The position numbers and the translations under genes are program-made. From a virus, in the IMG/VR virus record IMGVR_UViG_3300017917_001373, positions 1 through 31,830 of that record: 31,830 bases of DNA; one strand, written 5' to 3'. Shown here piece by piece: positions 1 through 28,492 of this stretch. Under the pieces are notes generated by a model, which was not told where the DNA came from, did no database searches, and worked only from the letters and a program-made list of their open reading frames with translations. Positions within the stretch are counted from its first letter, which is position 1; each line of letters begins with the position of its first letter.

Positions 1-306
1 ACAGGCGGCGAACAAGCTACTGAAGGCAGGTTTGATGAGCCGCTAACAGGATGGCGCATTGTTTCTAAGAAGCACGATAGCGTTGCTGGTCCTAAGTTTA
101 ATTCAAAGGAAGAAGCACAGAAATATCTTATGACCAAGATGTTTGCTAATCATCAAGATTACAAAGTTGTATCATATGCCAATGAAGACAAGATCAAGGG
201 CGTGGACGGCAAGGCATGTTGGCCAGGCAAGCGTTATGCTGGCAAGGAAAAGAAGGCGGACGGTACTTACAAGGATATCTGCGTGCCAGTTAAGAAGAGC
301 AAGTGA
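1..306 (+). CDS. 3' end of an unrecognised phage protein (partial)
   Basis: Reading frame 1 is open from the first base to a TGA at 304-306, giving 101 residues with the start outside the window. The visible part is lysine-rich and ends in KKSK. It includes a stretch reading GWRIVSKKHDSVAGPKF, then a helix-like segment (SKEEAQKYLMTKMF), then a C-terminal half with Gly, Lys and aromatic residues and two cysteines. I do not recognise the family. The following gene starts inside its stop codon (TGATG overlap), so the two are probably translated together. Confidence 0.7.
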   Translation, partial: TGGEQATEGRFDEPLTGWRIVSKKHDSVAGPKFNSKEEAQKYLMTKMFANHQDYKVVSYANEDKIKGVDGKACWPGKRYAGKEKKADGTYKDICVPVKKSK

Positions 307-731
307 TGCGCGATCTGCTCAATCTGTTTGAAGACGTCAACGAGATATGGTTCAAAGACGGTAGCTTCGAGACTTACAAGCGAGCTACTCCTATCAGCTA
401 CGAGACTGCCACGCAAGATGGAACCATACAGACGCTAGAAGGTCCAGTTGCTTATAAAGCAGGATACAAGATCATCACTGGGCCCAAGGGTGAGAAGTAT
501 CCAATCCCACCAGAGAAGTTTGCAGGCTTGTATGATGTCGACGACGAGAACACTGCTACTCCCAAGAAGATAATGAAGCTGGCCAAGCTAGCTGATCATG
601 ATGGTGCTGTCAAGACCAGCTGGGGAGAAACCCTCAATTATAAAGCAGGTGAAGATTACATCGTGCGTCACGGTGCTAATGATTACGGTGTGGTCAAGAA
701 GGACATCTTTGCCAAGACCTACGTGATGTGA
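306..731 (+). CDS. PGDYG-like small phage protein
   Basis: A 141-residue protein starting at ATG 306, which overlaps the previous stop; an in-frame GTG one codon upstream is also possible. The C-terminal third reads YKAGEDYIVRHGANDYGVVK, then KDIFAKTY. This resembles the PGDYG domain found in phage and bacterial small proteins, where a Gly-Asp-Tyr-Gly-like turn follows a 'yi.r' strand. A related half-motif (YKAGYKIITGPKGEKYPIP) near residues 50-68 suggests two copies of the same fold in tandem. No catalytic residues are evident and the function is unknown. The stop codon abuts the convergent gene that follows with no gap. Confidence 0.65.
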   Translation: MRDLLNLFEDVNEIWFKDGSFETYKRATPISYETATQDGTIQTLEGPVAYKAGYKIITGPKGEKYPIPPEKFAGLYDVDDENTATPKKIMKLAKLADHDGAVKTSWGETLNYKAGEDYIVRHGANDYGVVKKDIFAKTYVM

Positions 732-742
732 TCAAACATCAC
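723..742. terminator. Hairpin over a convergent gene junction
   Basis: GTGATGT (723-729) and ACATCAC (736-742) are perfect inverted repeats around a 6-base loop. The stem contains the stop codon of the plus-strand gene (729-731) and lies over the stop of the minus-strand gene (732-734). The position fits a bidirectional transcription stop or an RNA-end protecting hairpin. There is no clear U-tract on either side, so classical Rho-independent termination is uncertain. Confidence 0.4.
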
Positions 743-1643
743 CTACGCTAGTGCCCTTTGAATGATCAAATCCCTCATAGTCTGCTTTGTAGACAGGCTT
801 GCTGTCATAATAGACAACCTTGTTGGGACACATTGAACAGACAGTCTCTGGACCTGTGCTGAAGAAATCAATCAGATCATCATAGTTAGGATCGTCTAGA
901 GCAAACGGCTTGTAATCAAGATATGGTTGCCAAGCTGGATCATCTAGCTGCTTGGTCTTGGCCAGCGTCTGTTTCAGATAAGCAAGCTTGGTGCATTTCC
1001 AAAGTGCGTTAGCATACAGAGGCGTGCAATACTTCATGCCGCATGCTGCCCAACTGCGCTTGTAGTTTGCTTCATTGACAGGATGTATCTTGCCATTAGC
1101 GTCCATTGGGTGTGGGATTGACCAATGGTAACGCTCGCCCTCGGGCTTGTAGACAGGAAAGCTCACGCCAGTTATCTCATGCTTGATCTTGTGCTTCTTT
1201 AGCAGCAGCACGCCCTTGATGATCTGCTTCTGTATCTTCTCGTCTTGTGTGTGGCTAGAAACTCTCACAGTAACATTGCTGTCACGCAATCTCTCTAGAT
1301 AAGACTCATTGCGTTCGATCAACAATCCGTTGGTGTAGATCACTATGTCGCTCTTGCTCATGCGCTGCTTGGCTAAATCGAATATGTCTAGGAAGTCGCT
1401 GTTGATAAAGGGCTCGCCACCGTATATCACTACTTCATCAACGTACATGTTGAAACGATCTAGCATGTCAGCTAGGTTGTTTACCCAACTCAATCTATCT
1501 TGCAGTGTGTAACCATCCTTGACTGCTAGATTGCTGCCCACGCTACAACCAAGACATTGCAGATTGCAGGACAGAGTAGCAGCGATGTCGATGTTCCTGA
1601 TGCCTAGCCCTTTAGTAGGGTGGACTTCAAAGTTGTGGATCAT
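732..1643 (-). CDS. Radical SAM protein with SPASM-like C-terminal cysteines
   Basis: A 303-residue protein. The radical-SAM iron-sulfur motif CNLQCLGC gives C26, C30 and C33 (CxxxCxxC), and GGEP at residues 75-78 is the SAM-binding loop. The C-terminal part has further cysteines at C201, C206, C217, C269 and C272 (CGMKYC, WKC, CSMC). These could hold an auxiliary 4Fe-4S cluster, as in SPASM or twitch domains of enzymes that modify peptides or proteins. It is the last gene of the minus-strand tail cluster, 34 bases after the 466-aa fibre-like gene. Inference: it may modify a virion protein, but a nucleotide or cofactor substrate is not excluded. The family call is firm and the substrate is unknown. 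Confidence 0.85.
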   Translation of the reverse strand: MIHNFEVHPTKGLGIRNIDIAATLSCNLQCLGCSVGSNLAVKDGYTLQDRLSWVNNLADMLDRFNMYVDEVVIYGGEPFINSDFLDIFDLAKQRMSKSDIVIYTNGLLIERNESYLERLRDSNVTVRVSSHTQDEKIQKQIIKGVLLLKKHKIKHEITGVSFPVYKPEGERYHWSIPHPMDANGKIHPVNEANYKRSWAACGMKYCTPLYANALWKCTKLAYLKQTLAKTKQLDDPAWQPYLDYKPFALDDPNYDDLIDFFSTGPETVCSMCPNKVVYYDSKPVYKADYEGFDHSKGTSVGDV

Positions 1644-1644
1644 A

Positions 1645-1658
1645 ACACTAGTTAGTGT
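1645..1658 (-). promoter_or_regulatory. Hairpin between possible SD and start of radical-SAM gene
   Basis: ACACTA (1645-1650) and TAGTGT (1653-1658) are perfect inverted repeats lying immediately upstream of the minus-strand ATG at 1643. The only purine-rich Shine-Dalgarno-like sequence (GATGAG, around 1659-1666 on the minus strand) sits on the far side of the hairpin, about 18 bases from the ATG. Folding would bring the two close together. The arrangement recalls T4 gene 38, where a hairpin shortens the SD-to-start distance. Confidence 0.4.
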
Positions 1659-1677
1659 AACTCATCAAACAGGTCAA

Positions 1678-3078
1678 TTACCAAGGATTGCCCGACCACT
1701 GTATTCGACGCCATATATCAGAATCAGCTAACGTGATCTTTACTGGGGTACCTAAACCAAAGCTGTCGGTAATATCCAATGTTAATGCCCATTCTGTTTC
1801 ATCTATTTCAGCACTAATAACATTTACTGTTTGGCCGCCAGAATCTGGATTAAATTGAAGCGTTCCACCAGTGGGATCTTGAAACTCATCAAAATCGAGA
1901 ACGTAAAACACGTTAGAATTATTAGTTTCCCTGGTAAGTGCAGTATTATACGAAATGATAGCATAATTGGCAGTACAACGATAGATATAGCTATCATCAA
2001 ATGCCAGATCGCCCACTAGGTCACCTTCGGCTCCTTTACTAGAATTAGGTGGATTGACTATTCTTCCACCAGACCATGCTGTGGTCTGTGTGGTAGCGTC
2101 AGGGAACGTTAATCCGCCATCCTGACCAAATGTCCAGCGTCTTAGGGTGCTGTCAGTGAGATTAACATCAATGTTAATAGCACTCTCGCTACCGATGCTG
2201 CCAGGTATGGTCAGATCACCGTCATTACCAAAGGTCCAATTATATGCGGTAAGCCCAATTCCAAACCCACCGGTTGCGATTTTTACCTCACCCGAATCAC
2301 CTTCATTGAATGATGCCGCTGCTATATTTCCCATAGCAAAAGCATTTTCAGTCCAACCTAGTTGCACGCCGCCACCAACACCCGAGGTTAATAATGCTAA
2401 CTGCTCACTAGGGGCTTGTAGCATTACGGTTCCGTTAATAGGAGCATAATTTCCAATAGGAGATATAGTCAAGTTACCAGGTAAACTAAAGGAACCATCT
2501 TCACCAAATTGCCATCTACGTAGACTTGAATCTGTTAAGTTAATGTCTATGTTGATAGCACTTTCGCTACCAATGTTTCCAGGTATGGTTAAATTACCGC
2601 TACCATCAAATGTCCAAGTGTATTGAAGATCGGTAGTGATAGTTACACGATCATTTGTATCGCTAACACGCACGTTTTGTTGTTCGCCACCAATGAATAG
2701 ATCAGCTGTGCTTTGATCTATCGTGCCGCCTGCTCTGATGTGTATGTGTCCTGGCTCACCTGTGGTAGGTTCTATCACAAGATATTGCTCGCTGCCACTT
2801 TGCCTCAACGCTTCATCAGGAATGAGTTTGATAGTATCAAACGGAATACCATCACCATCAACATCACTGCTGTCAGAATCACCGCCGTAGAACGTGCCTT
2901 TTCTCAAGACCTTGCTGTTGACGTGAGTGCGAACACCATCAAAAATCAGCAGTTCTAGCTTGTCGTTGTCTCCAACATACAATCCAATCTCGCCGCGAGG
3001 GCGAATTTCGAGACTGGTGTTGTCGTTGCTGCTGTTGCCATCAACCTGGCTAGTTGGTATCCTGTATATTCTTGCCAT
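1678..3078 (-). CDS. Tail fibre-like virion protein with internal repeats
   Basis: A 466-residue protein starting at ATG 3078, with an AGGAAAA Shine-Dalgarno about 10 bases upstream. It is rich in Gly, Ser, Thr, Asp and Asn with short beta-strand patterns typical of trimeric fibres. It has two copies of a 36-residue unit built on 'WTF..DG.LTIPG', 'IGSESAINID' and 'NLTDS.LRRW', plus related 'FG.DG...LPG' pieces. A C-terminal segment (FPDATTQTTAW) matches a phrase common in phage fibre proteins. There are no catalytic motifs. It follows the giant tail gene by 16 bases, so the two are co-transcribed. Adhesin or fibre role is inferred from composition, repeats and position. Confidence 0.7.
   Translation of the reverse strand: MARIYRIPTSQVDGNSSNDNTSLEIRPRGEIGLYVGDNDKLELLIFDGVRTHVNSKVLRKGTFYGGDSDSSDVDGDGIPFDTIKLIPDEALRQSGSEQYLVIEPTTGEPGHIHIRAGGTIDQSTADLFIGGEQQNVRVSDTNDRVTITTDLQYTWTFDGSGNLTIPGNIGSESAINIDINLTDSSLRRWQFGEDGSFSLPGNLTISPIGNYAPINGTVMLQAPSEQLALLTSGVGGGVQLGWTENAFAMGNIAAASFNEGDSGEVKIATGGFGIGLTAYNWTFGNDGDLTIPGSIGSESAINIDVNLTDSTLRRWTFGQDGGLTFPDATTQTTAWSGGRIVNPPNSSKGAEGDLVGDLAFDDSYIYRCTANYAIISYNTALTRETNNSNVFYVLDFDEFQDPTGGTLQFNPDSGGQTVNVISAEIDETEWALTLDITDSFGLGTPVKITLADSDIWRRIQWSGNPW
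2134..2241 (-). repeat. 36-codon internal repeat, copy 2
   Basis: This 108-base unit encodes the 'WTFGNDGDLTIPGSIG' ... 'NLTDSTLRRW' segment of the fibre-like protein. It matches the unit at 2512-2619 along its full length, with differences mostly at third codon positions. The pattern points to an old intragenic duplication kept under protein-level selection. Confidence 0.8.
2512..2619 (-). repeat. 36-codon internal repeat, copy 1
   Basis: The partner of the 2134-2241 unit, encoding 'WTFDGSGNLTIPGNIG' ... 'NLTDSSLRRW'. The two are separated by about 270 bases of unrelated fibre sequence, so they are not strictly tandem. Confidence 0.8.
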
Positions 3079-3094
3079 CGTTTATTTTTCCTGA

Positions 3095-6082
3095 TCAATC
3101 CCAAATCTCTGAACCATAGAATACCTTAGCACTCCATTGTATCTTTACGGTGGTTGCGTCGCCATCAATACGTTTGAACTTGAGCTGTCCTTCGTTGTCT
3201 TGATGCCATAGTATCATGTTTTCGCCATCGCTGCCGCCGCTGAAAACTTCAGTATGAGCAACGTTTTCGTCGCCGCTGTCATCGACGATGTGTATGGTTC
3301 CTATCATCGTGCCAGCATTGTTATCGTAGGCGTGATAGTCTATCACAGCGCCACGGAAGTTTGATCCACCACCTGGCAGGTCGTTCCTGTCCCACCATAT
3401 CTGAGGAGCGCCGCCGCTGCGATATCTGAAATAAAGCGTATCACCAGAATTGTAATTCAATTGTGGGTCACCATTGAGGTTGTATCCTCTTTCATTTCCG
3501 CTGTAACTCGTGCTGCCGCCCCAGCTATACCAGTTTATATCATCTATCGAGAATTCTAGATCAGTGAAGGTCAGCACATCATAAGTTGACCAATCACCAA
3601 TTATCGTATCTATGGTAGTGGTGGTTGAATCTAACCAAATTGTATTAGTTGAAGTTTGGTTTCGTGAAACCGTAGCAGTTAAATTTGTAGTAGTAACGGC
3701 GGTAACCGTCACTGCCTTGTAACCATATACTTCCTCGATCCTGCGACTGCCTGTGCTTTCAAGTTTAATACGACCAATTCCATCTGCGGATTTAAGCTTC
3801 GTGCCATCAGCAAAAGTAATACCTTCATTTAGTTTGGTTGTATCTATCTCATAACGAAGATAGCTAAATCCGCCGCCACCGCCCTGCGTCCAACTGAGGA
3901 ACTTGATGGCATAATATGTGTCAGTGTCCTCGATATACATCACGCATTCAGTTCCTACGATCTTGTTGCCAAGGCCGCCGTTACCAAATGTTTCGTAGAG
4001 TGGTCGATAGTTTCTAGTGGTAATGTCTGTTAGATCATCCCAACCATCTATATTCCAAAGCGTGCCGCCTGGGCTAACATCCTCATCCCAGCTACCTTCT
4101 CTGTATGGATTATAGATGCCATTGTTGGTATCTCTGGTGATGCCAATGCCCGCACCGTTACCATCATCTTCAACGAATATGTCTATGGTATCAGTGTCAT
4201 TGTCCGGCTTGAGGAAATAATTGCCAGTATTGATTAACTGCCTAGTATAAGAAAATCCACCGCCGTTGCCGCCCTGCGTCCAGCTGCTGAATTTAACCGC
4301 ATAATACTTGTCATTGATAGTATCATGCATGATTAATTCAGCACCAACTACATTGTTACCAACCTGTCCGCCTAGAGTGTTATAGAAAGTATCGTATGTT
4401 CTCTGCTTTACATCTCTTAGTAATCCCCAACCATCTACATTCCATTCTGTGCCTTCGGGGCTGTCTCTTCCGTCACCTAAGGAACTATAACTTGCTTCCA
4501 ATGCGATGTTATAGATGCTTTGGTTATTTCCTCTGGCGATCGTTAGGTTAGTATCAATTGGATCATTTACTTGTGTTGGATCAGCATATCCTGCTTTAGT
4601 AAACGTAACTGGATCACCAATTGTTGCACCAGTTGTTGGGTTTATCTGTGTTCTCGTATAAGTTACTGGAGCACCTTGGTTTGCGTTGCCCCAAACTGTA
4701 AAATCAAACTTGTAATACTTGTTGTTGGCAACATCTTTCATTATAGCTTCAGCAGCTAAAACGTTGTTACCAAAACGTAGGAATGTTTCATAAAAACTGA
4801 GATATATTCTTTGATCTAGATTAGTTAAATCTCCCCAACCGTCTTTGTTCCATAGTGTGCCAGCTGGGCTTTCTCCGTCGCTGGTTGTGTCATCCCAATC
4901 TGATTCGAGATATGGATTGAATATTCCTTGATTGATGCCTCTGGTGATTGCTAAACTAGTGTCAATCTCATCAACTTCGTCACCGTTGTTTGTTTTTGTA
5001 AATGATACCAGTGGTCCATCATACTTGTTAAAAATAAACGGATCGTTGGTTAATTCTAAGTATGGTTGCACTGCGCCAGTAACGCCGCCACCACCGCCTG
5101 TGAATGGCTCTCCGTTAAGTGTTAGTGATCCAGCATTTGTTAATGCAAATGTATTTTCACCATTAACTAGCTCGCTGATAGCTTTGATTTCGCTGCTAGC
5201 ATCACTATCTTCTGGATCTGGTTCTTCGTTTTCTTCACCTGGGTTAACAACTTTAGTGACTGCTAGCTTGCCATTATTGTTCGTGAGCTTGATGTTATCT
5301 AAGTAGATGCTGCCACCTGCTGTATAAACGTGGCGCCATTGCTTGGTTGGTGATCCTAGATCGTGGACGTTGTCTGAATCTGGGATGATATCTGTAGTGA
5401 CATTAGATAGATTAGGGATAAACGGAGTATTGGTCAGATCAAGGTAGCTACCGCTAAACAAGTTTGGCTTGTTGGCAAGGTTATTGTAATCAAATGCGCT
5501 AAATTCGAGCCCAGTCTCATCGTTCTTGACGCTGACGAACTTGCCAGCTTGGCCTACGAAGCTGTCGGGAGTTTCACGGATGTTCGTGAAGCTGATCTCG
5601 GGAATGCCATCCACGGTTGATATGCTGGTAGGATTATAGTTCCATGCATTCTCGATGGTAACGGGAGTGAATGCACCGTAGTTGTCATCTAGGTAAAGTA
5701 TCTCACCTTCAACAACGGTGCTGCCATCGTTGGGAGGCATCAGCCTAGCGATTATGTGATAGAACCTGTGCTGTAGATTTCGAAGATCAGCTTCGGTGAA
5801 CTCTATGCTAGCTACGCCGCTGGTAGGCGCAGAAACTGTCGCTGTCTTGGTGACGAAATGTTCTTCCGTCTCCCTGTCCACGATCTGCACCTGCACATCG
5901 TAGTTTGTCAAGTCCACCACCTTTTGGGCGTTATTAAACACCACTATCTTGATGGTATTCGCAGTGCCCTTGTAGAGCATGATTGGCTGCTGATAGGCCA
6001 TCCTCCACACTGTGTTTGTGGTGTTTGTGCCTGTGTTAATGGCTGGGTTATAGCTGAAGGCATAGATCGTTTGCATAGTCAT
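3095..6082 (-). CDS. Giant tail/fibre protein with three ~110-aa repeats
   Basis: About 995 residues from ATG 6082 (MTMQTIYAFSY). An in-frame ATG at 6115 would add 11 residues (MIVFIRG...). I prefer 6082 because the protein-like sequence begins there and a GGGG lies upstream, though the spacing is long. The N-terminal ~130 residues (QPIMLYKGTANTIKIVVFNN onward) look like a beta-rich attachment domain. The middle has three diverged repeats of about 110 residues, each running 'DxID', 'TRG.N.GIYN', 'P.GT.WN.DGW', 'GN...A', 'KYYA.KF..W', then a Gly-rich 'GGGFSY.R' loop. The C-terminal ~250 residues are rich in Thr, Asp and Gly. It is the first gene of the minus-strand tail cluster, probably a long fibre or baseplate-associated protein. 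Confidence 0.7.
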   Translation of the reverse strand: MTMQTIYAFSYNPAINTGTNTTNTVWRMAYQQPIMLYKGTANTIKIVVFNNAQKVVDLTNYDVQVQIVDRETEEHFVTKTATVSAPTSGVASIEFTEADLRNLQHRFYHIIARLMPPNDGSTVVEGEILYLDDNYGAFTPVTIENAWNYNPTSISTVDGIPEISFTNIRETPDSFVGQAGKFVSVKNDETGLEFSAFDYNNLANKPNLFSGSYLDLTNTPFIPNLSNVTTDIIPDSDNVHDLGSPTKQWRHVYTAGGSIYLDNIKLTNNNGKLAVTKVVNPGEENEEPDPEDSDASSEIKAISELVNGENTFALTNAGSLTLNGEPFTGGGGGVTGAVQPYLELTNDPFIFNKYDGPLVSFTKTNNGDEVDEIDTSLAITRGINQGIFNPYLESDWDDTTSDGESPAGTLWNKDGWGDLTNLDQRIYLSFYETFLRFGNNVLAAEAIMKDVANNKYYKFDFTVWGNANQGAPVTYTRTQINPTTGATIGDPVTFTKAGYADPTQVNDPIDTNLTIARGNNQSIYNIALEASYSSLGDGRDSPEGTEWNVDGWGLLRDVKQRTYDTFYNTLGGQVGNNVVGAELIMHDTINDKYYAVKFSSWTQGGNGGGFSYTRQLINTGNYFLKPDNDTDTIDIFVEDDGNGAGIGITRDTNNGIYNPYREGSWDEDVSPGGTLWNIDGWDDLTDITTRNYRPLYETFGNGGLGNKIVGTECVMYIEDTDTYYAIKFLSWTQGGGGGFSYLRYEIDTTKLNEGITFADGTKLKSADGIGRIKLESTGSRRIEEVYGYKAVTVTAVTTTNLTATVSRNQTSTNTIWLDSTTTTIDTIIGDWSTYDVLTFTDLEFSIDDINWYSWGGSTSYSGNERGYNLNGDPQLNYNSGDTLYFRYRSGGAPQIWWDRNDLPGGGSNFRGAVIDYHAYDNNAGTMIGTIHIVDDSGDENVAHTEVFSGGSDGENMILWHQDNEGQLKFKRIDGDATTVKIQWSAKVFYGSEIWD
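3845..4195 (-). repeat. Tail protein repeat unit 3
   Basis: Encodes a unit from 'DTIDIFVEDDG' to 'GFSYLRYEID'. It shares the 'GIYNPY', 'GGTLWNIDGW', 'NKIVGTE', 'YYAIKFLSWTQGG' framework with the other two units. Boundaries are approximate. Confidence 0.7.
4230..4565 (-). repeat. Tail protein repeat unit 2
   Basis: Encodes a unit from 'DPIDTNLTIARG' to 'GFSYTRQLI', with 'SPEGTEWNVDGW', 'NNVVGAE' and 'KYYAVKFSSWTQGG'. It is closest to unit 3 in its Gly-rich C-terminal loop. Boundaries are approximate. Confidence 0.7.
4630..4970 (-). repeat. Tail protein repeat unit 1
   Basis: Encodes a unit from 'EIDTSLAITRG' to 'VTYTRTQI', with 'SPAGTLWNKDGW', 'NNVLAAE' and 'KYYKFDFTVWGN'. It is the most diverged of the three, and its Gly-rich loop is replaced by 'NANQGAPVTY'. 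Boundaries are approximate. Confidence 0.7.
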
Positions 6083-13931: not shown

Positions 13932-15476
13932 GTGACAGATACCGTTGATCTCAAATCGAGGCAACGCGATTATGCCGTATTCCTGCCTGCCATAAGCACG
14001 TTCTACTCAACGTTCATTGGCAGGCAGAGATCGTCTAATTACGTTGAACCTTCTAGGATACCTGCAACTCTCACCAATGGCGTGGAGAGCTTGAACTTCC
14101 TGGATCCTAACAAGACAATCTTCTACTATCCCTGGGCATTGTACTCAGCAGGACACGCCGTGCTTGACTTAAACAAGCATGCGCCCAAAGAGGATCTGTT
14201 CAGGCAGCGTCCTCGCAACGGCGACAGCTTGATACTGGGCGACTCGGGTGGGTTCCAGATCGGCAAGGGCGTGTGGGAAGGCGATTGGAAGGATCCTAGC
14301 TGTCCCAAGGCACAGGAAAAGCGTGAGCTAGTGCTCAAGTGGATGGACGGGCTCATGGACTATGGCATGATCCTCGATATTCCTGCATGGGTGGCACGTA
14401 GTCCCAAGGGACAGAAGGCCACTGGCATCTCTAGCTATGCAGAAGCAGTTGCCGCTACTGAGATCAACAACGACTACTTCATGCGCAACAGATCTGGTGC
14501 ATGCAAGTTCCTCAACGTCTTGCAGGGCGAAACCCATGCAGAAGCCGAGGACTGGTACCAGAAGATGAAGAAATACTGCGATCCCAAGCAGTACCCAGGT
14601 ACTCACTTCAACGGTTGGTCAATGGGTGGCCAGAACATGTGTGACGTACACTTGGTGCTCAAGCGACTGGTTGCCATGCGCTTTGATGGGCTATTGGAAA
14701 AGGGCATACATGATTGGATGCACTTCCTCGGCACGTCAAAGCTTGAATGGGCGATCATGCTGACCGACATCCAACGTGCTGTCCGTAAGTACCACAACGA
14801 GAACTTCACCATCAGCTTTGACTGTGCTAGCCCGTTCCTAGCTAACGCTAACGGATTGATCTATACCTATACCAGGATGTTGGATCGCAGCAAGTGGACC
14901 TACAAGATGGAATCATCTGTGGACGATCGCAAGTATGCAGGTGACACTAGGATGTTGGGCGATGTCTTGCGCGATGACAAGATCGTAGAAGACTTCGAGG
15001 ATGGCCCAGTCAGCAAGCTGCTCAAGTGCAACGACATCTGCATCTACAAGCCAGGTGATGTCAACAAGATTGGCAAGGTAGGCAAGACCAGCTGGGATAG
15101 CTTCAGCTATGCTCTGCAGATGGCACATAATACATGGGCGCACATCAATGCAGTACAGCGAGCCAACGATGTCTATGACACGGGCATAGTTCCAGGCATG
15201 CTGGTAGATGAGCGTTTTGATCGCATCATGTTCCGTGACATCGTGGAAGAGATCTTCTCTACCAGCGATCGAGCCAAGGCAGAAGCAGCCATAGAGAAGT
15301 GGGACAAGTTCTATCTGCGCATAATTGGAACACGCGGTGCAACTGGCAAGAAGACCATCAATGCCAAGACTGCGTTCAATGCCATGTTTGATGTTCCAAA
15401 TATCATCGCAGAAGAGGTTGACGAAACGCTCGATGAAGCTAAGCTAGAGCAACTAGAGGACCAAACGGATGATTAA
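13932..15476 (+). CDS. dpdA: DpdA-type DNA 7-deazaguanine transglycosylase
   Basis: A 514-residue TGT-superfamily enzyme. GDSGGFQ (103-109) carries the catalytic D104. SFDCASPFLANANG (295-308) matches the tRNA-guanine transglycosylase nucleophile motif 'FDCVLPTRNARNG', with D297. FLNVLQGE (193-200) and GWSMGGQN (228-235) match the substrate-pocket loops. The C-terminal CxCxxC zinc site of tRNA transglycosylases is absent, which favours the DNA-acting DpdA family. These enzymes swap guanine in DNA for a 7-deazaguanine after replication, protecting phage DNA from restriction. The start is GTG 13932 with AAGGA (13921-13925). FolE, QueD and QueE downstream supply the base. Confidence 0.85.
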   Translation: MTDTVDLKSRQRDYAVFLPAISTFYSTFIGRQRSSNYVEPSRIPATLTNGVESLNFLDPNKTIFYYPWALYSAGHAVLDLNKHAPKEDLFRQRPRNGDSLILGDSGGFQIGKGVWEGDWKDPSCPKAQEKRELVLKWMDGLMDYGMILDIPAWVARSPKGQKATGISSYAEAVAATEINNDYFMRNRSGACKFLNVLQGETHAEAEDWYQKMKKYCDPKQYPGTHFNGWSMGGQNMCDVHLVLKRLVAMRFDGLLEKGIHDWMHFLGTSKLEWAIMLTDIQRAVRKYHNENFTISFDCASPFLANANGLIYTYTRMLDRSKWTYKMESSVDDRKYAGDTRMLGDVLRDDKIVEDFEDGPVSKLLKCNDICIYKPGDVNKIGKVGKTSWDSFSYALQMAHNTWAHINAVQRANDVYDTGIVPGMLVDERFDRIMFRDIVEEIFSTSDRAKAEAAIEKWDKFYLRIIGTRGATGKKTINAKTAFNAMFDVPNIIAEEVDETLDEAKLEQLEDQTDD

Positions 15477-18298: not shown

Positions 18299-18860
18299 TG
18301 TTGGCCAAATCGTTGACATAAGATTCAAGCTACGCTCAACGTTCTGCAATCTCTGGCCAAACTGCAAGATCATCGTCAACGATGAAACGCTGTTCGACGG
18401 GCAAGTAGTAGAGAGACTGGATCTAATCAAGCAGTTCACTATCCGTGAGAACAACAGCATCGTCGTTAGCCACTATGGCAAGAGGTTCGGTGAGAACAGG
18501 ATATGGGATACCAAGTCTGCTGGAGATCAGATAGTCGCAGACAGGACTCTGCATGTGGATGACATGTTGATCATGGGCATATCCATGAAGCCGTGGTGGC
18601 ATAAAGGAAGCATGGACATAGAGTCACAGGTACCTAAGAATTCATCTATCATACATTTCTATTTCAATGCTTCGTATTCTCTTAGCTTCACTGCTCCTTT
18701 CTATGATTGGCTGATTGATTCTAGATATGAGGGCTTCAAGGAAGTGGGCCCTATCTGGAAGATGAGCAGCCTAAATACCAAATCAGATGGGTATAGCAGC
18801 AGCATGCTAGAGCTAGAACCTTTGCTAGATAGAATACAGGACACGATCAACAAGCTATGA
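18285..18860 (+). CDS. Conserved hypothetical beta-rich protein
   Basis: A 191-residue protein from ATG 18285, supported by AAGGAG (18272-18277). A longer upstream frame overlaps the glycosyltransferase gene and is unlikely. The pattern is beta-rich: VDIRFKLRSTF, CKIIVNDETLFDGQVVE, NNSIVVSHYGKRF, then DDMLIMGISMKPWW and a C-terminal FYDWLIDSRYEGF. It is reminiscent of carbohydrate-binding or jelly-roll domains, without a specific match. It overlaps the glycosyltransferase end and is coupled to the radical-SAM gene by ATGA, so the three may act together. Confidence 0.65.
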   Translation: MLEDDVGQIVDIRFKLRSTFCNLWPNCKIIVNDETLFDGQVVERLDLIKQFTIRENNSIVVSHYGKRFGENRIWDTKSAGDQIVADRTLHVDDMLIMGISMKPWWHKGSMDIESQVPKNSSIIHFYFNASYSLSFTAPFYDWLIDSRYEGFKEVGPIWKMSSLNTKSDGYSSSMLELEPLLDRIQDTINKL

Positions 18861-20311
18861 CCAAGACATTGGTATTAACGCCTCCGTTCTTAGAATCATT
18901 CAGGCCGCCTATCTCAGGAGCGATCATATGCGCAGTGGCTAAGTCTTCAGGGCATGATGTCACTGCTTGGGATCCTAACATCAAGCTATTCAACAAGGTT
19001 GGTGGAGACAAGTTCTACGAGCTGATGTTGCAGTTTAACGGCTTGCAAGATCGCACTGACGAAAATAACAAGCTAGTGAACGAGTTCCTCGAGAACTATG
19101 ATTACTCTGGTTATGATTACATACTGATCAGCATATTCAGCCAATATGAGATTGAATGTTCTAAGATCATACTAGACATAATCAAGCGTAGGAACATCAA
19201 GTCAACCGTCATACTTGGTGGTTCTGGTGTTGAGCTCAATTTTAACACTGGGCACGATGAAAAGTTTGGGCAGTCCATGCTCAATCAAGGGCTATGCGAT
19301 CACTATGTGGTAGGTGAAGGTGAAGTTGCTCTCAGCGAGATATTCAATGGTAACACTAACTATCACGGCGTGAATGGTAACCAACCAAAGCAGATTGACG
19401 AGCTTGATACTCTACCGTTTCCAAACTACGACTTCTATGATCGAAGCGAATACAATTACATTGATCCGGACATGCCTGATCTGTTCGTCTATGGCAGCAG
19501 AGGGTGCGTTCGCCGTTGCAGCTTCTGTGACGTTGCGCATTACTGGCCCTTGTATAGGTATCGCAGCGGCAAGAACATCGCTGAAGAATTGCTGGGCTAT
19601 TGGGAGAAGTATGGCGTCAAGCATTTCTTCTTCACTGATAGCTTGATGAATGGTAGCCTCAAGGCTTATCGAGAGCTGCACGAAACGTTGGCCAAGAAGC
19701 AAGGCTTGCCCAAGCTACGCATATCCGGTTATGCCATAATCAGACCTAAGAACCAACACCCTAAGGAACTGTTTGACATGATGCAGAACACGGGTCACCA
19801 CCTGTGGAGCATTGGCATTGAACATGGTAGCGATGCCATGCGACTGGACATGAAGAAGAAGTTTACCAACGACGACATTGATTGGCATCTCGAGCAGAGC
19901 GAACGCATTGGATTACAAAACAATTGGTTGCTTATGCCAACTTGGGTGAACGAGACGCAGAAACATCATCAAGAATACTTGGACATGTTCGTGCGCTGGC
20001 GCAGATACGTAGCCAACGGTGTGATCACTAGCGTGACCATCGCACCGGCTCTTGCTGCATTAAACAATACTCCATTGATGTCAGAGTCGCACATCGACTT
20101 CTATAATACCGACAGCAACGTTCTGCGGGAAATGCTTTGGATGAACGAGAAGAATCCAACCTTGACCGTACAAGAACGGCATCGCAGGACATTGGAAATC
20201 TACAAGCAGGCATTGAGATACAAGTGGCCTGTCAACGAAGCCCAAAGGAAGCTGCTGGCGGTTGAAAGCATAGTCAAGCAAACAATAAACTTGACTAGAC
20301 GATCTAAATAA
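18857..20311 (+). CDS. B12-binding-type radical SAM protein
   Basis: A 484-residue protein with the architecture of cobalamin-dependent radical SAM enzymes. Residues 1-165 form a Rossmann-like domain (LVLTPPFLESFRPPISGAII, YDYILISIFSQYE, STVILGGSGVE, HYVVGEGEVALSEI). GSRGCVRRCSFCDV follows, with C217, C221 and C224 (CxxxCxxC). The TIM barrel continues with HFFFTDSLMNG and IGIEHGSD. The DxHxxG signature for base-off cobalamin is not visible, so it may not bind B12 in the usual way. Family members methylate or rearrange unactivated carbons. The substrate is unknown; position between the glycosyltransferase and folE suggests a nucleobase or sugar decoration. Confidence 0.85.
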   Translation: MTKTLVLTPPFLESFRPPISGAIICAVAKSSGHDVTAWDPNIKLFNKVGGDKFYELMLQFNGLQDRTDENNKLVNEFLENYDYSGYDYILISIFSQYEIECSKIILDIIKRRNIKSTVILGGSGVELNFNTGHDEKFGQSMLNQGLCDHYVVGEGEVALSEIFNGNTNYHGVNGNQPKQIDELDTLPFPNYDFYDRSEYNYIDPDMPDLFVYGSRGCVRRCSFCDVAHYWPLYRYRSGKNIAEELLGYWEKYGVKHFFFTDSLMNGSLKAYRELHETLAKKQGLPKLRISGYAIIRPKNQHPKELFDMMQNTGHHLWSIGIEHGSDAMRLDMKKKFTNDDIDWHLEQSERIGLQNNWLLMPTWVNETQKHHQEYLDMFVRWRRYVANGVITSVTIAPALAALNNTPLMSESHIDFYNTDSNVLREMLWMNEKNPTLTVQERHRRTLEIYKQALRYKWPVNEAQRKLLAVESIVKQTINLTRRSK

Positions 20312-20315: not shown

Positions 20316-20363
20316 AGAATGCATAATGAAATCGCAATCCACTGCGTTAACATCGGAGATAAA

Positions 20364-21038
20364 ATGAGCATTTCAAACAAGATCAAGCAACGCATCGAAC
20401 ACGCAGGTGCTCGATTCCACTCAAACGACAACATTGCTGAGTTCGTCAACGAGGACGAGATCGAGCAGTTGGTCGATGAGGTAGCTGCGAAGTTCCAAGG
20501 CGTTCTTGAATCGCTGGTCATCGACACCAATCATGATCACAACACACAGGACACAGCCAGGCGCGTGGCCAAGATGTTCGTCAAGGAGACGTTCTCTGGA
20601 CGCTATCGTCCTGTGCCCAAGGTAACTGCTTTCCCTAACATGGGGTACAAGAGCCTGTACACTACAGGCCCAATCTCTATTCGCTCAACCTGCGCACACC
20701 ACTTCCAGAACATCGTGGGCCGCTGCTGGGTTGGCATCGTTCCTGAGGATGAGGTTATTGGTCTTTCAAAGTTTAACCGCATCGTGCATCACATCTGTGA
20801 GCGGCCGCAGATCCAGGAAGAGATGACCACGCAGATCGCAGAAGCGTTGAAGAAGTATGCCAAGACTGATAACATCGCAGTCGTGGTCAAGGCTGAACAT
20901 CACTGCATGACCATGCGTGGCGTTCGTGAGCATGAGAGCGACATGACCACTGCTATCATGCTTGGAGCATTCGAGAAGGATCCTGCGCTCAAGAAGGAGT
21001 TCTACGACATCTGCTTGAGCATGAAAGGACATTCATGA
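20364..21038 (+). CDS. folE: GTP cyclohydrolase I (FolE)
   Basis: A 224-residue enzyme that converts GTP to 7,8-dihydroneopterin triphosphate, the first step to 7-deazaguanines. The start is ATG 20364 with GGAG 5 bases upstream; an in-frame ATG at 20319 lacks a ribosome site. TQDTARRVAKMF (61-72) is the usual N-terminal signature. STCAHHF gives zinc ligands C110 and H113, and HHCMTMRGVRE gives C181. VIGLSKFNRIV (131-141) and RPQIQEEMTTQIA (147-159) are also family hallmarks. The usual Glu of 'CEHH' is Ala here (CAHH). It supplies QueD downstream, and both feed DpdA. Confidence 0.95.
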   Translation: MSISNKIKQRIEHAGARFHSNDNIAEFVNEDEIEQLVDEVAAKFQGVLESLVIDTNHDHNTQDTARRVAKMFVKETFSGRYRPVPKVTAFPNMGYKSLYTTGPISIRSTCAHHFQNIVGRCWVGIVPEDEVIGLSKFNRIVHHICERPQIQEEMTTQIAEALKKYAKTDNIAVVVKAEHHCMTMRGVREHESDMTTAIMLGAFEKDPALKKEFYDICLSMKGHS

Positions 21039-23802: not shown

Positions 23803-24303
23803 ATGGCGAACATTAATAGGACTTACAAGTACACATCAACCAAGGAATACCACAATGCGTTTCCTTGTGCTTACAGGCAGTGGCGTGCAGACAGCCATTG
23901 CAATCTCATCCATGGTTACAGCTTCTCGATGAAGTTCTACTTTGGAACTGACGATCTAGACGTGCGCAACTGGGCTGCTGACTACGGTGGCCTCAAGGAG
24001 CTCAAGAAGATCCTCGAGGATCAGTTCGATCATACCCTGCTGGTAGCAGAGGATGATCCCGAGCTTGAAACCTTCAAGCTGCTACAGTCTAAGAAGATGG
24101 CCAAGCTGACCATCCTTCCTAGGTTAGGTTGCGAAGGCCTCGCAGACATGCTCTACAAGTATGTCAACGGCGTCTACATTCCAGACATGTGGGGGCCTAG
24201 CGAAGCTGCAAGGCTCTGGTGCTATCGTGTAGAAGTGCGTGAAACGATCGCTAACATGGCCTTCCGCGAGGGCCACAGGGAGTGGAACGAGGATCTGATT
24301 TGA
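23803..24303 (+). CDS. queD: 6-carboxy-tetrahydropterin synthase (QueD)
   Basis: A 166-residue T-fold enzyme. It converts dihydroneopterin triphosphate to 6-carboxy-tetrahydropterin, the substrate of QueE. IHGYSFSMKFYF (36-47) replaces the usual HGHNY motif, giving H37 and Y39. DYGGLKELKKIL (60-71), FDHTLLVAEDD (75-85) and GCEGLADMLYKY (109-120, C110) are the family's catalytic region. VEVRET follows near residue 143. This 'HGY' form occurs in a bacterial QueD branch as I remember it. AGGAG supports the ATG at 23803. Its end overlaps the first amidinotransferase start by 4 bases. Confidence 0.9.
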   Translation: MANINRTYKYTSTKEYHNAFPCAYRQWRADSHCNLIHGYSFSMKFYFGTDDLDVRNWAADYGGLKELKKILEDQFDHTLLVAEDDPELETFKLLQSKKMAKLTILPRLGCEGLADMLYKYVNGVYIPDMWGPSEAARLWCYRVEVRETIANMAFREGHREWNEDLI

Positions 24304-25475
24304 GCTCTTTGCGTAAATTCAACGTAAAGAACAAGACAGATCGATTGCGCTCTGTTATGTTGGGTACATTCTTTATGCCTGAGGCATTTACAGGCATAAA
24401 GAACCCCCGCATCAGAGAACCACTTATGCAGGTAGCTGATGAAATCAATCGAGATCTAGAACATTTCGAATCCGTGCTCAAGAGAGAAGGTTGCAAGGTC
24501 GTAAGGACCGTGCAGCCCTCTTCTGACATAACAAGCTATGGAACAAACATCAACACCTGGGCACCTCGAAATTGCCACGTGGTGATAGGCGGCCAGCTCG
24601 TGCAACTACAGAACAATGCAAGCGTCACTGATGCATTAGTCGAATATAGCAATGACATCCTCGATCTAGAATCTAGCAATGATGCCTTCTTTGATTCATC
24701 TATGGCTGCTGCTAAAAGCAACTATAATGCAGACAGAGACACCTGGTATTCTCGGAAGAAGTACGAGGTGCTAGAAGGAAGCGATTGGCCAACATACCAC
24801 GATTACGTCACTGGCAACTATGAGGTAGAAGAACCTATCAAGTTAGAGATGCAATCTTTTGCTGATGACATGATGTATTGGACTAACGAGCTTGGACCAA
24901 TAAATGGTCCTAACGTCATGTGCCTTGATGATAAGATAGTAGTTGATGCTAATGAATATTGTGACTACGCTGGTTGGCTAGCTCGAAGCATTGATGACCC
25001 TAGAACAGTCGTGCAAATCACTACCAGAGCAGGACACACCGACGGTGCCTTCATGATACTAGGTAACAACACGATCATCGGCATCAACAACATAATAGAC
25101 TACCAAGCTACCTTTCCAGGCTATCACGTGATTGGTGTTCCTGAGATCGCATACCAAAATCACATACATGAATTCAATCTCATGAAGTCGAAAGTAAATG
25201 GAAAGTGGTGGATACCCGGCGAGGAATACAACCAAGATTTGATAGATTTCGTTGAGCAGGTTTTAAGCGTGTGGGTTGGTAGGGCAGAGGAATCTGTGTT
25301 TGATGTTAACGTCTTGCCGCTTGATAATAAAACTGTATTTGTCAGCAGAGATGATGCTAACATAAGAGAACAGTTGAAGATGAGAGGAATCGATTCTATC
25401 GTCATACCTTGGCGACATCGTTTTTTCATTGACAACGGCTTGCATTGCATAACATTGGACTTAGAAAGAGAATGA
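24300..25475 (+). CDS. Amidinotransferase/arginine-deiminase superfamily protein, paralogue 1
   Basis: About 391 residues from TTG 24300, supported by GAGGAT 7 bases upstream; a GTG at 24282 is an alternative. The start gives MSSLRKF, matching where its paralogue begins. The fold's catalytic triad is visible: GHTDGAFMIL (H246, D248) and GLHCITLDLER (C383). The WAPRN loop (87-91) takes the place of the family's PRD. Members transfer an amidino group from arginine to an amine (GATM, StrB1) or hydrolyse arginine. It is about half identical by eye to the protein at 25662 over its whole length. Sitting between queD and queE, a role in a deazaguanine side chain is a candidate idea, not shown. Confidence 0.8.
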   Translation: MSSLRKFNVKNKTDRLRSVMLGTFFMPEAFTGIKNPRIREPLMQVADEINRDLEHFESVLKREGCKVVRTVQPSSDITSYGTNINTWAPRNCHVVIGGQLVQLQNNASVTDALVEYSNDILDLESSNDAFFDSSMAAAKSNYNADRDTWYSRKKYEVLEGSDWPTYHDYVTGNYEVEEPIKLEMQSFADDMMYWTNELGPINGPNVMCLDDKIVVDANEYCDYAGWLARSIDDPRTVVQITTRAGHTDGAFMILGNNTIIGINNIIDYQATFPGYHVIGVPEIAYQNHIHEFNLMKSKVNGKWWIPGEEYNQDLIDFVEQVLSVWVGRAEESVFDVNVLPLDNKTVFVSRDDANIREQLKMRGIDSIVIPWRHRFFIDNGLHCITLDLERE

Positions 25476-25672
25476 AAGCTAACTATCCAAAAGATCTCGG
25501 TAACAATCGTTGGATCATTGAAGTCAAGGGCAAGGAAGGGTCAGATGAACTCTTCCTTGAACTACCTCCTGACTCATTGAGCCAGATGGGCTGGCATGAG
25601 GGAGACATCATTGAGTGGATCGATCGCAAGGATGGTTCCTGGGAACTCAAGAAAAAGAGCGATGAACAGTAA
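25472..25672 (+). CDS. AbrB/MazE-like small protein
   Basis: A 66-residue protein from ATG 25472 (ATGA overlap with the first amidinotransferase). The last 40 residues, LFLELPPDSLSQMGWHEGDI then IEWIDRKDGSWELKK, follow the swapped-hairpin AbrB pattern 'i.lP.e.l..lGw..GD...w....dG.i.l'. Such proteins bind DNA as antitoxins or regulators, or act as small adaptors. No toxin is adjacent. It overlaps the second paralogue's start by 11 bases. Confidence 0.6.
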   Translation: MKANYPKDLGNNRWIIEVKGKEGSDELFLELPPDSLSQMGWHEGDIIEWIDRKDGSWELKKKSDEQ

Positions 25673-26846
25673 GCCTGGTTCAAGACAATACCATGTAAAC
25701 GATAAGACTGATAGATTGCGATCGGTCATTCTAGGTACTTTCTTCTATCCAGAATACTTCTCACAGATAAAGAATCCTCGAGTGAGAGAACCATTGAAGC
25801 GGGTATCAGAAGAGATCAACAACGACTTGGATCAATTTGAATCCATGCTCAAGGCCGAAGGGTGCCATGTGGTCAGGACCATACAGCCACAGTCTGACAT
25901 AGACTGCTATGCTAATGACATCAACAGTTGGGCACCTCGCAACAACCATGTGGTCATTGGCAATAAGCTAGTACAGCTAGCAACAAATGCCAGCGTGACC
26001 GATGCATTGGTTGAATACGCACCAAGCATGCTCGACCTGTCAAAAGACAATCAAGCATATTTTGAAAAAAGCATGTCAGCAGCAAGAGGTTGCTACAGTG
26101 CAGCCAAGAACGCATGGTATTCTCGGAAGAAGTACGACATGCTAGCGGGAAGCGATTGGCCGACGTTTGAGGATTTCGTGCAGGGCAATTATTCCGTGCC
26201 AGATGCTATAAGAGATGAGCTTGCGCAATGTGAAGATGATCTGTCTTATTGGACGGATGAGATGCGACCACTCAGCGGCCCAAACGTGATGGTGCTGCGT
26301 GATAGGATCATAGTCGATAGCAACGAATACTGTGCTTATGACGAGTGGATCAGTGAGAACGTGATAAACGATCGGCAGATCTCGAAGATAACGACACGGG
26401 CATGGCATACTGATGGGGTCATGGCCATACTTGGAAACGATACCGTGATCGGTGGATTAGAACTGATTGATTATGAATCAATCTTGCCAGGATACCACGT
26501 GATCGATCTACCTGATGAGCCGCCACAATTTAATATACCTGGCTTCCAGAAGATGAAAGAGTGCGTAAATGGTAGATGGTGGATACCTGGCGAGGAGGAA
26601 AATTCCGAACTCATATCCTTCGTTGAACACATGTTGAGCATATGGGTAGGAAACACGTTGGATTCTAGGTTTGGCGTAAACGTCCTTCCATTAGACGCTA
26701 GCACGATCTTCGTAAGCCACGATGATCCTGATATCAAAGCACAGCTCAAAGCTAGAGGCATAGAAACGATCCTAGTGCCATGGCGGCACAGCTTTTTCAT
26801 TGATCACGGATTACATTGCATAACGTTAGACCTAGAACGGAGATGA
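25662..26846 (+). CDS. Amidinotransferase/arginine-deiminase superfamily protein, paralogue 2
   Basis: A 394-residue protein from ATG 25662. The catalytic motifs are kept: WHTDGVMAIL (H249, D251) and GLHCITLDLER (C386), so both copies look active. It shares KTDRLRSV.LGTFF near residue 15, SWAPRN (89-94), YSRKKYDMLAGSDWPT (153-168), WWIPGEE (306-312) and NVLPLD (340-345) with paralogue 1. The upstream frame extends further but overlaps the AbrB-like gene. Codon choice differs between the paralogues, so the duplication is old. The retained catalytic residues in both suggest different substrates or a heteromeric enzyme. Confidence 0.8.
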   Translation: MNSKPGSRQYHVNDKTDRLRSVILGTFFYPEYFSQIKNPRVREPLKRVSEEINNDLDQFESMLKAEGCHVVRTIQPQSDIDCYANDINSWAPRNNHVVIGNKLVQLATNASVTDALVEYAPSMLDLSKDNQAYFEKSMSAARGCYSAAKNAWYSRKKYDMLAGSDWPTFEDFVQGNYSVPDAIRDELAQCEDDLSYWTDEMRPLSGPNVMVLRDRIIVDSNEYCAYDEWISENVINDRQISKITTRAWHTDGVMAILGNDTVIGGLELIDYESILPGYHVIDLPDEPPQFNIPGFQKMKECVNGRWWIPGEEENSELISFVEHMLSIWVGNTLDSRFGVNVLPLDASTIFVSHDDPDIKAQLKARGIETILVPWRHSFFIDHGLHCITLDLERR

Positions 26847-26858
26847 CGAAAGCGCAGC

Positions 26859-27644
26859 ATGAGTGATCATTACTTTAAAAAATTCTATGATGATGTGAGG
26901 GCGAAAGATTGGCCCGACGCGACAAGTTATGCTGATTATCTGAAGATTCCAGGTTGGATTCAGGAAGAATGCATCAGAGATCACGGCTTAGATAAGCGAC
27001 TGCGTGAGATGGAGGATCATCATCATTGGCGCCGAGTTTCAGGTCCAATCATTGGTTTTAAGAAAGCTGATGTGGTATTCCTCCCTGTGTATAAATGCGG
27101 CAGCTCATATTACACCGAGATACTAGAAACGCAGGGTTGGGAAAAAGCCAACATAGCAGATTTAGATTTACAGCGATTGAATGCTATCGGAGTGATCATC
27201 CATCCGTTAACTCGAAGGTTAAAAGGAATCGCAGAAGGCATACATCGCACGTTCAAGCATGATTATGATAAGATCAATCGTTATATGTCGGATCCTGACT
27301 TCCGAAAGTTTATCAGTTCGATCTCGATACTAGATGATCACAGCATACCTTATTCCGTCGCATTTGGAGAAAAGCTTGATCAGATAGATTGGATACCAGC
27401 TGAACTGTTCACTTATGATCAGATAGATTCTCGCATACGCTCTTTCTGCAAAAGATTTGATGTTGACATAGATTTCCCACAAAACTATAATAGGGGAGAA
27501 AGCGGTGCGTCACAACGAATGCTCTACAACACCATTAAAGATGATTGGTTGCATGATCCAAAAGCATTGGTAGAGACTTACATGCTGTTCGCAGACGATT
27601 TGAAATTTTATCATGCATTGCTACGTAAAGTGAAGGATAGTTGA
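26859..27644 (+). CDS. Sulfotransferase-like protein
   Basis: A 261-residue protein. VVFLPVYKCGSSYYTEIL (72-89) resembles the 5'-phosphosulfate loop of sulfotransferases ('vpKcgsTsl'), with K79. VIIHPLTRRLKGIAEGI (112-128) resembles the 3'-phosphate strand and helix ('vvRdP..RllSay'), with Arg at 119-120 but no Arg-Asp pair. The rest is helical. It would use PAPS to sulfate a hydroxyl or amine. It lies 12 bases after the amidinotransferase pair and overlaps queE by one base, so it is part of the same operon. The fold call is by motif only; a degenerate P-loop protein is the alternative. Confidence 0.6.
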   Translation: MSDHYFKKFYDDVRAKDWPDATSYADYLKIPGWIQEECIRDHGLDKRLREMEDHHHWRRVSGPIIGFKKADVVFLPVYKCGSSYYTEILETQGWEKANIADLDLQRLNAIGVIIHPLTRRLKGIAEGIHRTFKHDYDKINRYMSDPDFRKFISSISILDDHSIPYSVAFGEKLDQIDWIPAELFTYDQIDSRIRSFCKRFDVDIDFPQNYNRGESGASQRMLYNTIKDDWLHDPKALVETYMLFADDLKFYHALLRKVKDS

Positions 27645-28492
27645 TGAGCAAGATCAAGATAGCTGAGATTTTCTACAGCTTACAAGGAGAAGGACAGTAT
27701 GTTGGAGTTCCTAGCATTTTCTTACGTACTTTTGGCTGTAATTTTACTTGCAGTGGCTTTGGTATGCCTATGGGCGAGCTTTCGTCTGAAAGACTGGGCG
27801 TTGATCCTAATAAGTTTGATGACTACCGGGATCTTCCTTTGGTTAGCACTGGCTGTGATAGCTACGCTAGTTGGGACGTAAGATTCAAGCACCTGAGTCC
27901 TATGCTAGAGGTCGGCGCCATTATCGAGCGTTTCAAGGAACTGTTGCCTAACGGTACCTTTGGTCGAGACAAGCATCTGATCATCACGGGCGGAGAACCT
28001 TTGCTGGGATGGCAGCGTAGCTATCCAGAACTGATCGACGAGTGCATCAGGATGGGGCTCACGCATCTCACTTTCGAGACCAACGGCACCCAGATGCTGA
28101 GCGAAGAGTTTACCAAGTACCTGAATGACATTGCTTGCCATCAGGGCGTGGAGATAACGTTCTCCATATCAGCCAAGCTACCTTGCAGCGGAGAGAAGTG
28201 GGAAGATGCAATACGACCTGATGTTGTTAAACATTATTGCGATATACATGGCCATCGTAGTTATTTCAAGTTTGTTGTATCTACGCAGCAGGATGTACTC
28301 GACGCACACCGTGCTGTGGATGAGTATGGAAGTGCTGGCATCAGCATCCCTGTTTACCTTATGCCTGTGGGCGGTGTTAACAGCGTATATGAGCTGAACG
28401 AGAGACAGGTAGCTGACTATTGCAGGGACAACGGCTTGCGCTTCTCGCCGCGCATACAGGTTCCGCTATATAAGAATGCATGGGGTACGTGA
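27644..28492 (+). CDS. queE: 7-carboxy-7-deazaguanine synthase (QueE)
   Basis: A 282-residue radical-SAM enzyme that contracts 6-carboxy-tetrahydropterin to 7-carboxy-7-deazaguanine. The start KIAEIFYSLQGEGQYVG (4-20) is the family hallmark. Cluster cysteines are C32 and C36 (GCNFTC) and probably C71 (STGCDSY), so the third ligand is separated by an insertion of about 35 residues instead of the usual CxxxCxxC. IITGGEPLL (113-121) binds SAM and FETNGTQ is the next strand. It overlaps the sulfotransferase-like stop by one base. The in-frame TTG at 27641 is less likely as start. Confidence 0.92.
   Translation: MSKIKIAEIFYSLQGEGQYVGVPSIFLRTFGCNFTCSGFGMPMGELSSERLGVDPNKFDDYRDLPLVSTGCDSYASWDVRFKHLSPMLEVGAIIERFKELLPNGTFGRDKHLIITGGEPLLGWQRSYPELIDECIRMGLTHLTFETNGTQMLSEEFTKYLNDIACHQGVEITFSISAKLPCSGEKWEDAIRPDVVKHYCDIHGHRSYFKFVVSTQQDVLDAHRAVDEYGSAGISIPVYLMPVGGVNSVYELNERQVADYCRDNGLRFSPRIQVPLYKNAWGT

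Follow-up and report, generated by a model that had tools for sequence, protein, structure and literature searches.

A twitch-type radical SAM protein encoded behind a phage fibre-gene pair has SpeY as its closest structural match

SpeY belongs to the spectinomycin pathway, in which it acts on a sugar moiety, and is represented in the PDB by entries 7wzv, 7wzx and 7x0b, titled 'Twitch Radical SAM Dehydrogenase'. A twitch domain is a truncated SPASM domain with one auxiliary cluster and the motifs CX9-15GX4C and CX2C (PMC6231123, PMC9012708), whereas the complete SPASM domain has seven cysteines in the arrangement CX9-15GX4C-gap-CX2CX5CX3C-gap-C and two auxiliary clusters (PMC6231123). In BtrN, a 2-deoxy-scyllo-inosamine dehydrogenase (PDB ID: 4m7t), the auxiliary cluster is ligated by four cysteines (PMC9012708). 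In phages, radical SAM cassettes near tail fibres have been reported in pelagimyophages, in which a hypervariable host-recognition island contains tail fibres, glycosyltransferases and radical SAM cassettes and has been read as a means of changing the host surface against co-infection (PMC7029224). The gene described here lies at the left end of the window, the whole 31.8-kb tailed-phage record that was analysed, which comes from an aquatic phage.

The radical SAM gene is the last of three genes on the minus strand, preceded by fibre 1 and fibre 2 with gaps of 16 bp and then 34 bp (Table 1). This order agrees with the initial annotation, and co-transcription of the three genes is plausible from the sequence. 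A scan for promoter- and terminator-like sequences around the gene run returned matches at chance level only. Positions 1644-1677 contain a short inverted repeat, ACACTAACTAGTGT, immediately ahead of the start codon of the radical SAM gene. Position 6082, originally given as the start of fibre 1, is an internal ATG; since the alignment to the relative L088 begins at window residue 14, the true start probably lies at about 6076-6082. Both upstream genes had been described as encoding large repetitive tail proteins. For fibre 1, this description stands: the three repeats share 40-49% identity, and the tail-fibre label is supported by way of its homologue in L087, the N-terminus of which matches tail-fibre PHROGs (phrog_6320, 1.8e-21). 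Fibre 2 has no family match, and its putative assignment as a fibre follows from its pairing with fibre 1 and its two similar segments.

Table 1. Coordinates of the features discussed, in window positions.
Feature	Position	Strand	Basis or conservation
Convergent gene, stop abutting the radical SAM stop	303..731	(+)	71% identical to L088:14356-14814; junction sequence
Twitch-type radical SAM protein gene, 303 aa	732..1643	(-)	Pfam PF04055, AF2 model, best PDB match SpeY
Auxiliary-cluster site, second half (Cys269-X2-Cys272)	828..839	(-)	58/58 relatives
Auxiliary-cluster site, first half (Cys201 and Cys217)	993..1043	(-)	58/58; C...YxGxLxxC pattern also in SpeY alignment
GGEP motif (residues 75-78), SAM binding	1410..1421	(-)	GGE 58/58, P 57/58
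CX3CX2C radical SAM cluster motif (residues 26-33)	1545..1568	(-)	58/58 relatives
Fibre 2, fibre-type protein of 466 aa with two similar segments	1678..3078	(-)	ORF; homologues after fibre 1 homologues in 13 contigs
Fibre 1, fibre-type protein of 1006 aa with three repeats of about 110 aa	3095..6115	(-)	ORF, repeats, tail-fibre PHROG matches of homologue L087
TGT-like	13932-15476	(+)	By inspection
FolE-like	20319-21038	(+)	By inspection
QueD-like	23803-24303	(+)	Family search
QueE-like	27641-28492	(+)	Family search

The encoded protein belongs to the radical SAM superfamily, as originally assigned: it contains the CX3CX2C and GGEP motifs, scores above the cut-off for Pfam PF04055 (48.7 bits against 29.5; E = 1.2e-12) and is modeled with the corresponding fold. 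The five extra C-terminal cysteines that had been pointed out are real (residues 201, 206, 217, 269 and 272), though only four of them are invariant. Across 58 distinct family sequences, Cys201, Cys217, Cys269 and Cys272 are conserved together with the three radical cysteines, and position 206 is a Cys in just 19. The translation contains neither a CX5CX3C motif nor a Cys beyond residue 272, and the seven-cysteine motif of the SPASM domain proposed in the initial annotation is thus absent. Because four of the extra cysteines are invariant, residue 206 is variable and none follows residue 272, the protein is a twitch enzyme with a single auxiliary cluster site. This cluster is predicted to be ligated by four cysteines, as in dehydrogenases of the SpeY and BtrN type. 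The window copy lacks some residues that are common in the family, namely His35 and the Gly before Cys217, the conserved Gly of the twitch motif being Asn212 in it. No RRE domain was found in the protein; just 25 residues precede the first cluster Cys, and of these, residues 17-25 are the only strand-forming part in the AF2 model. Among the NCBIfam radical SAM equivalogs, the best score was 40 bits, and every listed model fell under its curated cut-off.

The AF2 model is of medium confidence (pLDDT 72, pTM 0.68). Its best PDB match is SpeY, both by Foldseek (5e-9) and by VIA (Z of 18.8 over 242 residues, with the next entry at 12.9), and a family profile compared with the PDB likewise places SpeY first (3.6e-19, with the next entry at 2.2e-12). 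The two proteins share the fold, the CX3CX2C motif and an auxiliary site composed of C...YxGxLxxC and CX2C, the latter region being weakly aligned. Unlike SpeY, to which it is approximately 15% identical in the structural alignment, the window protein is phage-encoded and has no antibiotic cluster. BtrN also has a twitch domain but is more distant (Z of 12.5), with a fold score level with those of peptide enzymes. The SPASM peptide maturases SuiB and CteB and the twitch maturase SkfB share the radical SAM domain and the first auxiliary site (Z of 10-13). All three, however, have an RRE domain, and CteB and SuiB, though not SkfB, have a second auxiliary cluster, both of which the window protein lacks. 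Since SuiB and SkfB (Z near 13) share second place with BtrN, the fold alone leaves a peptide substrate possible, yet in this model SpeY is clearly set apart from the other fold matches. The match is at approximately 15% identity and uses a medium-confidence model, and proteins of the same fold may differ in substrate.

A single-sequence scan of IMG/VR with the window protein found no relatives; a three-sequence profile was needed, and it returned 238 matches, of which the best 80 were taken. No plasmid relatives were found. The family is common in aquatic phages. In the 82 loci compared (the best 80 of the 238 matches and two GenBank phages, with the window locus counted), a NodU-like carbamoyltransferase is encoded nearby in 56. 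When 134 neighbours from 30 representative loci were scanned against Pfam and PHROG, the families encountered included carbamoyltransferase, PhoH, exonuclease, 2OG oxygenase, DegT aminotransferase, epimerase and PIG-L, and no tail family was among the 25 commonest. Neighbours of relatives include NAD epimerase, UDP-sugar dehydrogenase and PIG-L deacetylase. In the cultured Synechococcus phage S-SCSM2R, a relative lies amid glycosyltransferases, an aminotransferase, 2OG oxygenases and an amidinotransferase, and one viral locus (L370:7248-8780 (+)) encodes a fusion of a GT2 glycosyltransferase with a twitch radical SAM protein. The bacterial relatives, from 45 genome contigs, have mixed neighbours that include glycosyltransferases and housekeeping genes. 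In the tree, the window gene groups with the phage clades that carry carbamoyltransferase and sugar clusters (98/96, 19-row set), on a long branch of 1.48 changes per column; its best identity is 32%, and no closer relative was found among the viral, plasmid and bacterial sequences searched. No sugar enzyme adjoins the window copy. Because of the long branch, the low best identity and the missing family-common residues, the substrate of the window enzyme may differ from that of its relatives.

In many T4-like marine phages (L021, L016, L037, L065 and others), a second family paralogue of approximately 343-360 aa follows an exonuclease gene, 4-6 genes downstream of the radical SAM gene. In L034 (7632-10117 (+)), four tandem paralogues of 189-224 aa start with MKIYFDGCS(N/H)T and are SGNH-hydrolase-like by inspection.

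Homologues of both fibre proteins are encoded side by side in 13 other IMG/VR contigs (L085, L087-L096, L098 and L099), and in none of these does a radical SAM gene adjoin the pair; viral records are often fragments, however, so that a gene missing from a record says little, save at the L088 junction itself. L088 is the closest syntenic relative, with 82% identity in the DNA polymerase, 76% in the N-terminus of fibre 1 and 71% in the convergent gene. At its junction, fibre 2 meets the convergent gene directly, with a 4-bp overlap, which leaves the site empty, and no family member was found anywhere in the 95-kb L088 record. In L099, the slot behind the fibre pair contains a gene that reads, by inspection, like a fatty-acid desaturase. 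In the opposite direction, a fibre 1 match appeared in one of 47 records with a family member, and it was short and weak. The idea that these genes travel together is therefore not borne out here. Because the fibre pair recurs without the radical SAM gene and the L088 site is empty, the gene was either gained in the window phage or lost in L088.

The reading that we favor, with moderate confidence, is that the window gene encodes a SpeY-like twitch radical SAM enzyme that oxidizes a sugar or glycan and is carried as host-recognition cargo. Its sugar-oxidation part is based on SpeY being nearest by three measures and on the relatives lying beside sugar-type enzymes, and its cargo part on the empty site in L088 and the other enzyme in the L099 slot. 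A phage gene of a SpeY-like twitch family would have entered the site behind the conserved pair of fibre genes. If the enzyme works as SpeY and BtrN do, its radical cluster would cleave SAM to a 5'-deoxyadenosyl radical, and this radical would abstract hydrogen from a carbon of the substrate, a sugar or a sugar-like compound. The second electron would then pass to the auxiliary cluster, predicted to be ligated by cysteines only, and partner enzymes could aminate, epimerize or carbamoylate the resulting keto-sugar. The product would probably change a glycan on the surface of the infected host cell, with receptor change or superinfection exclusion as the outcome, or another glycan made during infection. 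This account fits the pelagimyophage island genomes, in which radical SAM genes are likewise added close to tail-fibre genes, with sugar enzymes (PMC7029224); that paper states no enzyme class, and the likeness lies in the setting of the genes. Counting against the sugar part are the lack of an adjoining sugar enzyme, the long branch, the low identity to SpeY in the fold alignment and the mixed neighbours of the bacterial relatives.

The empty L088 site, the different enzyme in L099 and the bacterial neighbours, housekeeping genes included, would also suit an enzyme that serves a host small-molecule pathway (cofactor, aminocyclitol or lipid), has no link to recognition and entered a permissive slot by chance. 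This explanation is unlikely, as most relatives in phages are found beside sugar-type enzymes or adhesins.

Modification of residues of the fibre proteins themselves, by a radical-made keto group, crosslink or epimer, was the proposal of the initial annotation and now seems quite improbable. In its favor, the gene ends the fibre transcription run, and twitch enzymes can act on peptides, as SkfB does (PMC6231123), but the proposal is retained mainly because of a separate clade of the family. A different member of the family (1e-44) is encoded in one of the fibre-pair contigs (the L090 record). This member and its relatives, at 41-60% identity to the query used, form a clade with support of 99/93 in which the four auxiliary cysteines are also kept. 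An Mtd_N-type tail-adhesin gene lies directly after the radical SAM gene in all 23 contigs that reach past it, which represents one conserved arrangement and not 23 independent events. Contigs that are long enough show the complete order: exonuclease, radical SAM, tail gene, a gene of approximately 149 aa and nrdA. Genes for three Fe-S assembly proteins, one IscU-like and two IscA-like, lie just upstream of the exonuclease-radical SAM-adhesin run (L329:9480-10988 (-); loci L330-L359), and homologues of these occur in 22-23 of the clade loci retrieved. The product of the tail gene contains an Mtd_N domain, followed in some by a pectate-lyase fold, and ranges from 178 to 556 aa; the first ~100 residues are the sole portion that all of these adhesins have in common.

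The window protein falls outside this adhesin-adjacent clade in the tree, and an Mtd_N domain was not found in the window fibres (E of 1.1 and 1.9), which are unrelated to the adhesins of the clade. In two further contigs, L379 (7952-8738) and, over the same interval, L380, the radical SAM gene between the exonuclease and adhesin genes is broken: the first cluster motif is gone and the C-terminal half is on the opposite strand. The adhesin gene remains open, and so it persists without an intact radical SAM gene in that phage. Together with these observations, SpeY as the best fold match, the sugar-type neighbours, the occurrence of the fibre pair without an adjoining gene in all 13 other contigs, the lack of a family member in L088 and the short N-terminus, which has too few residues for an RRE domain, argue against fibre-residue modification. 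A broader version is similarly doubtful; in it, the twitch family would modify phage adhesins or an attached glycan, and maturation of a virion receptor-binding protein by a radical enzyme would be represented independently by the adhesin-adjacent clade, with its own Fe-S assembly proteins, and by the window gene. Members of the family lie largely away from fibre genes, which the initial annotation had itself named as grounds for rejecting its proposal; the adhesin-adjacent clade is the exception to any blanket statement of this kind. A looser link between the radical SAM gene and host recognition does survive, through the adhesin pairing and the pelagimyophage cassettes (PMC7029224).

The TGT-, FolE-, QueD- and QueE-like genes of the window probably constitute a 7-deazaguanine DNA-modification pathway, and the radical SAM protein could take part in it, contributing to a modified nucleotide or DNA base. 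Such a role is very unlikely: these genes are at least 12 kb away on the other strand, relatives of the radical SAM gene are unlinked to them, and L088 retains a TGT-like gene yet has no radical SAM gene of this family. Action as a RiPP maturase on a small precursor peptide is hardly credible, as the sub-threshold matches to maturases such as WgkB (40 bits against a cut-off of 650) are equaled by those to MoaA and other small-molecule enzymes, the protein has neither RRE nor SPASM domain, and no precursor was noticed among the listed ORFs of at least 60 aa in the unit.

Elsewhere in the window, two tandem paralogues (24282-25475 and 25596-26846 (+)) have distant similarity to amidinotransferases (5wpi, 9e-5), and their homologues occur in 14 loci that carry the radical SAM gene. 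A second radical SAM protein, of the B12 type and with a weak B12-binding domain, is encoded at 18857-20311 (+); its gene lies two genes downstream of one that weakly resembles glycosyltransferases.

A large unnamed family of phage radical SAM proteins thus appears SpeY-like, so that a generic label can give way to a testable hypothesis of sugar oxidation, and a cultured carrier of the family is available in Synechococcus phage S-SCSM2R. The fixed pairing of one clade with the genes for a tail adhesin and for Fe-S assembly is noteworthy in its own right. If true, the sugar-oxidation reading would connect the host-recognition islands of phages with unusual glycan chemistry.
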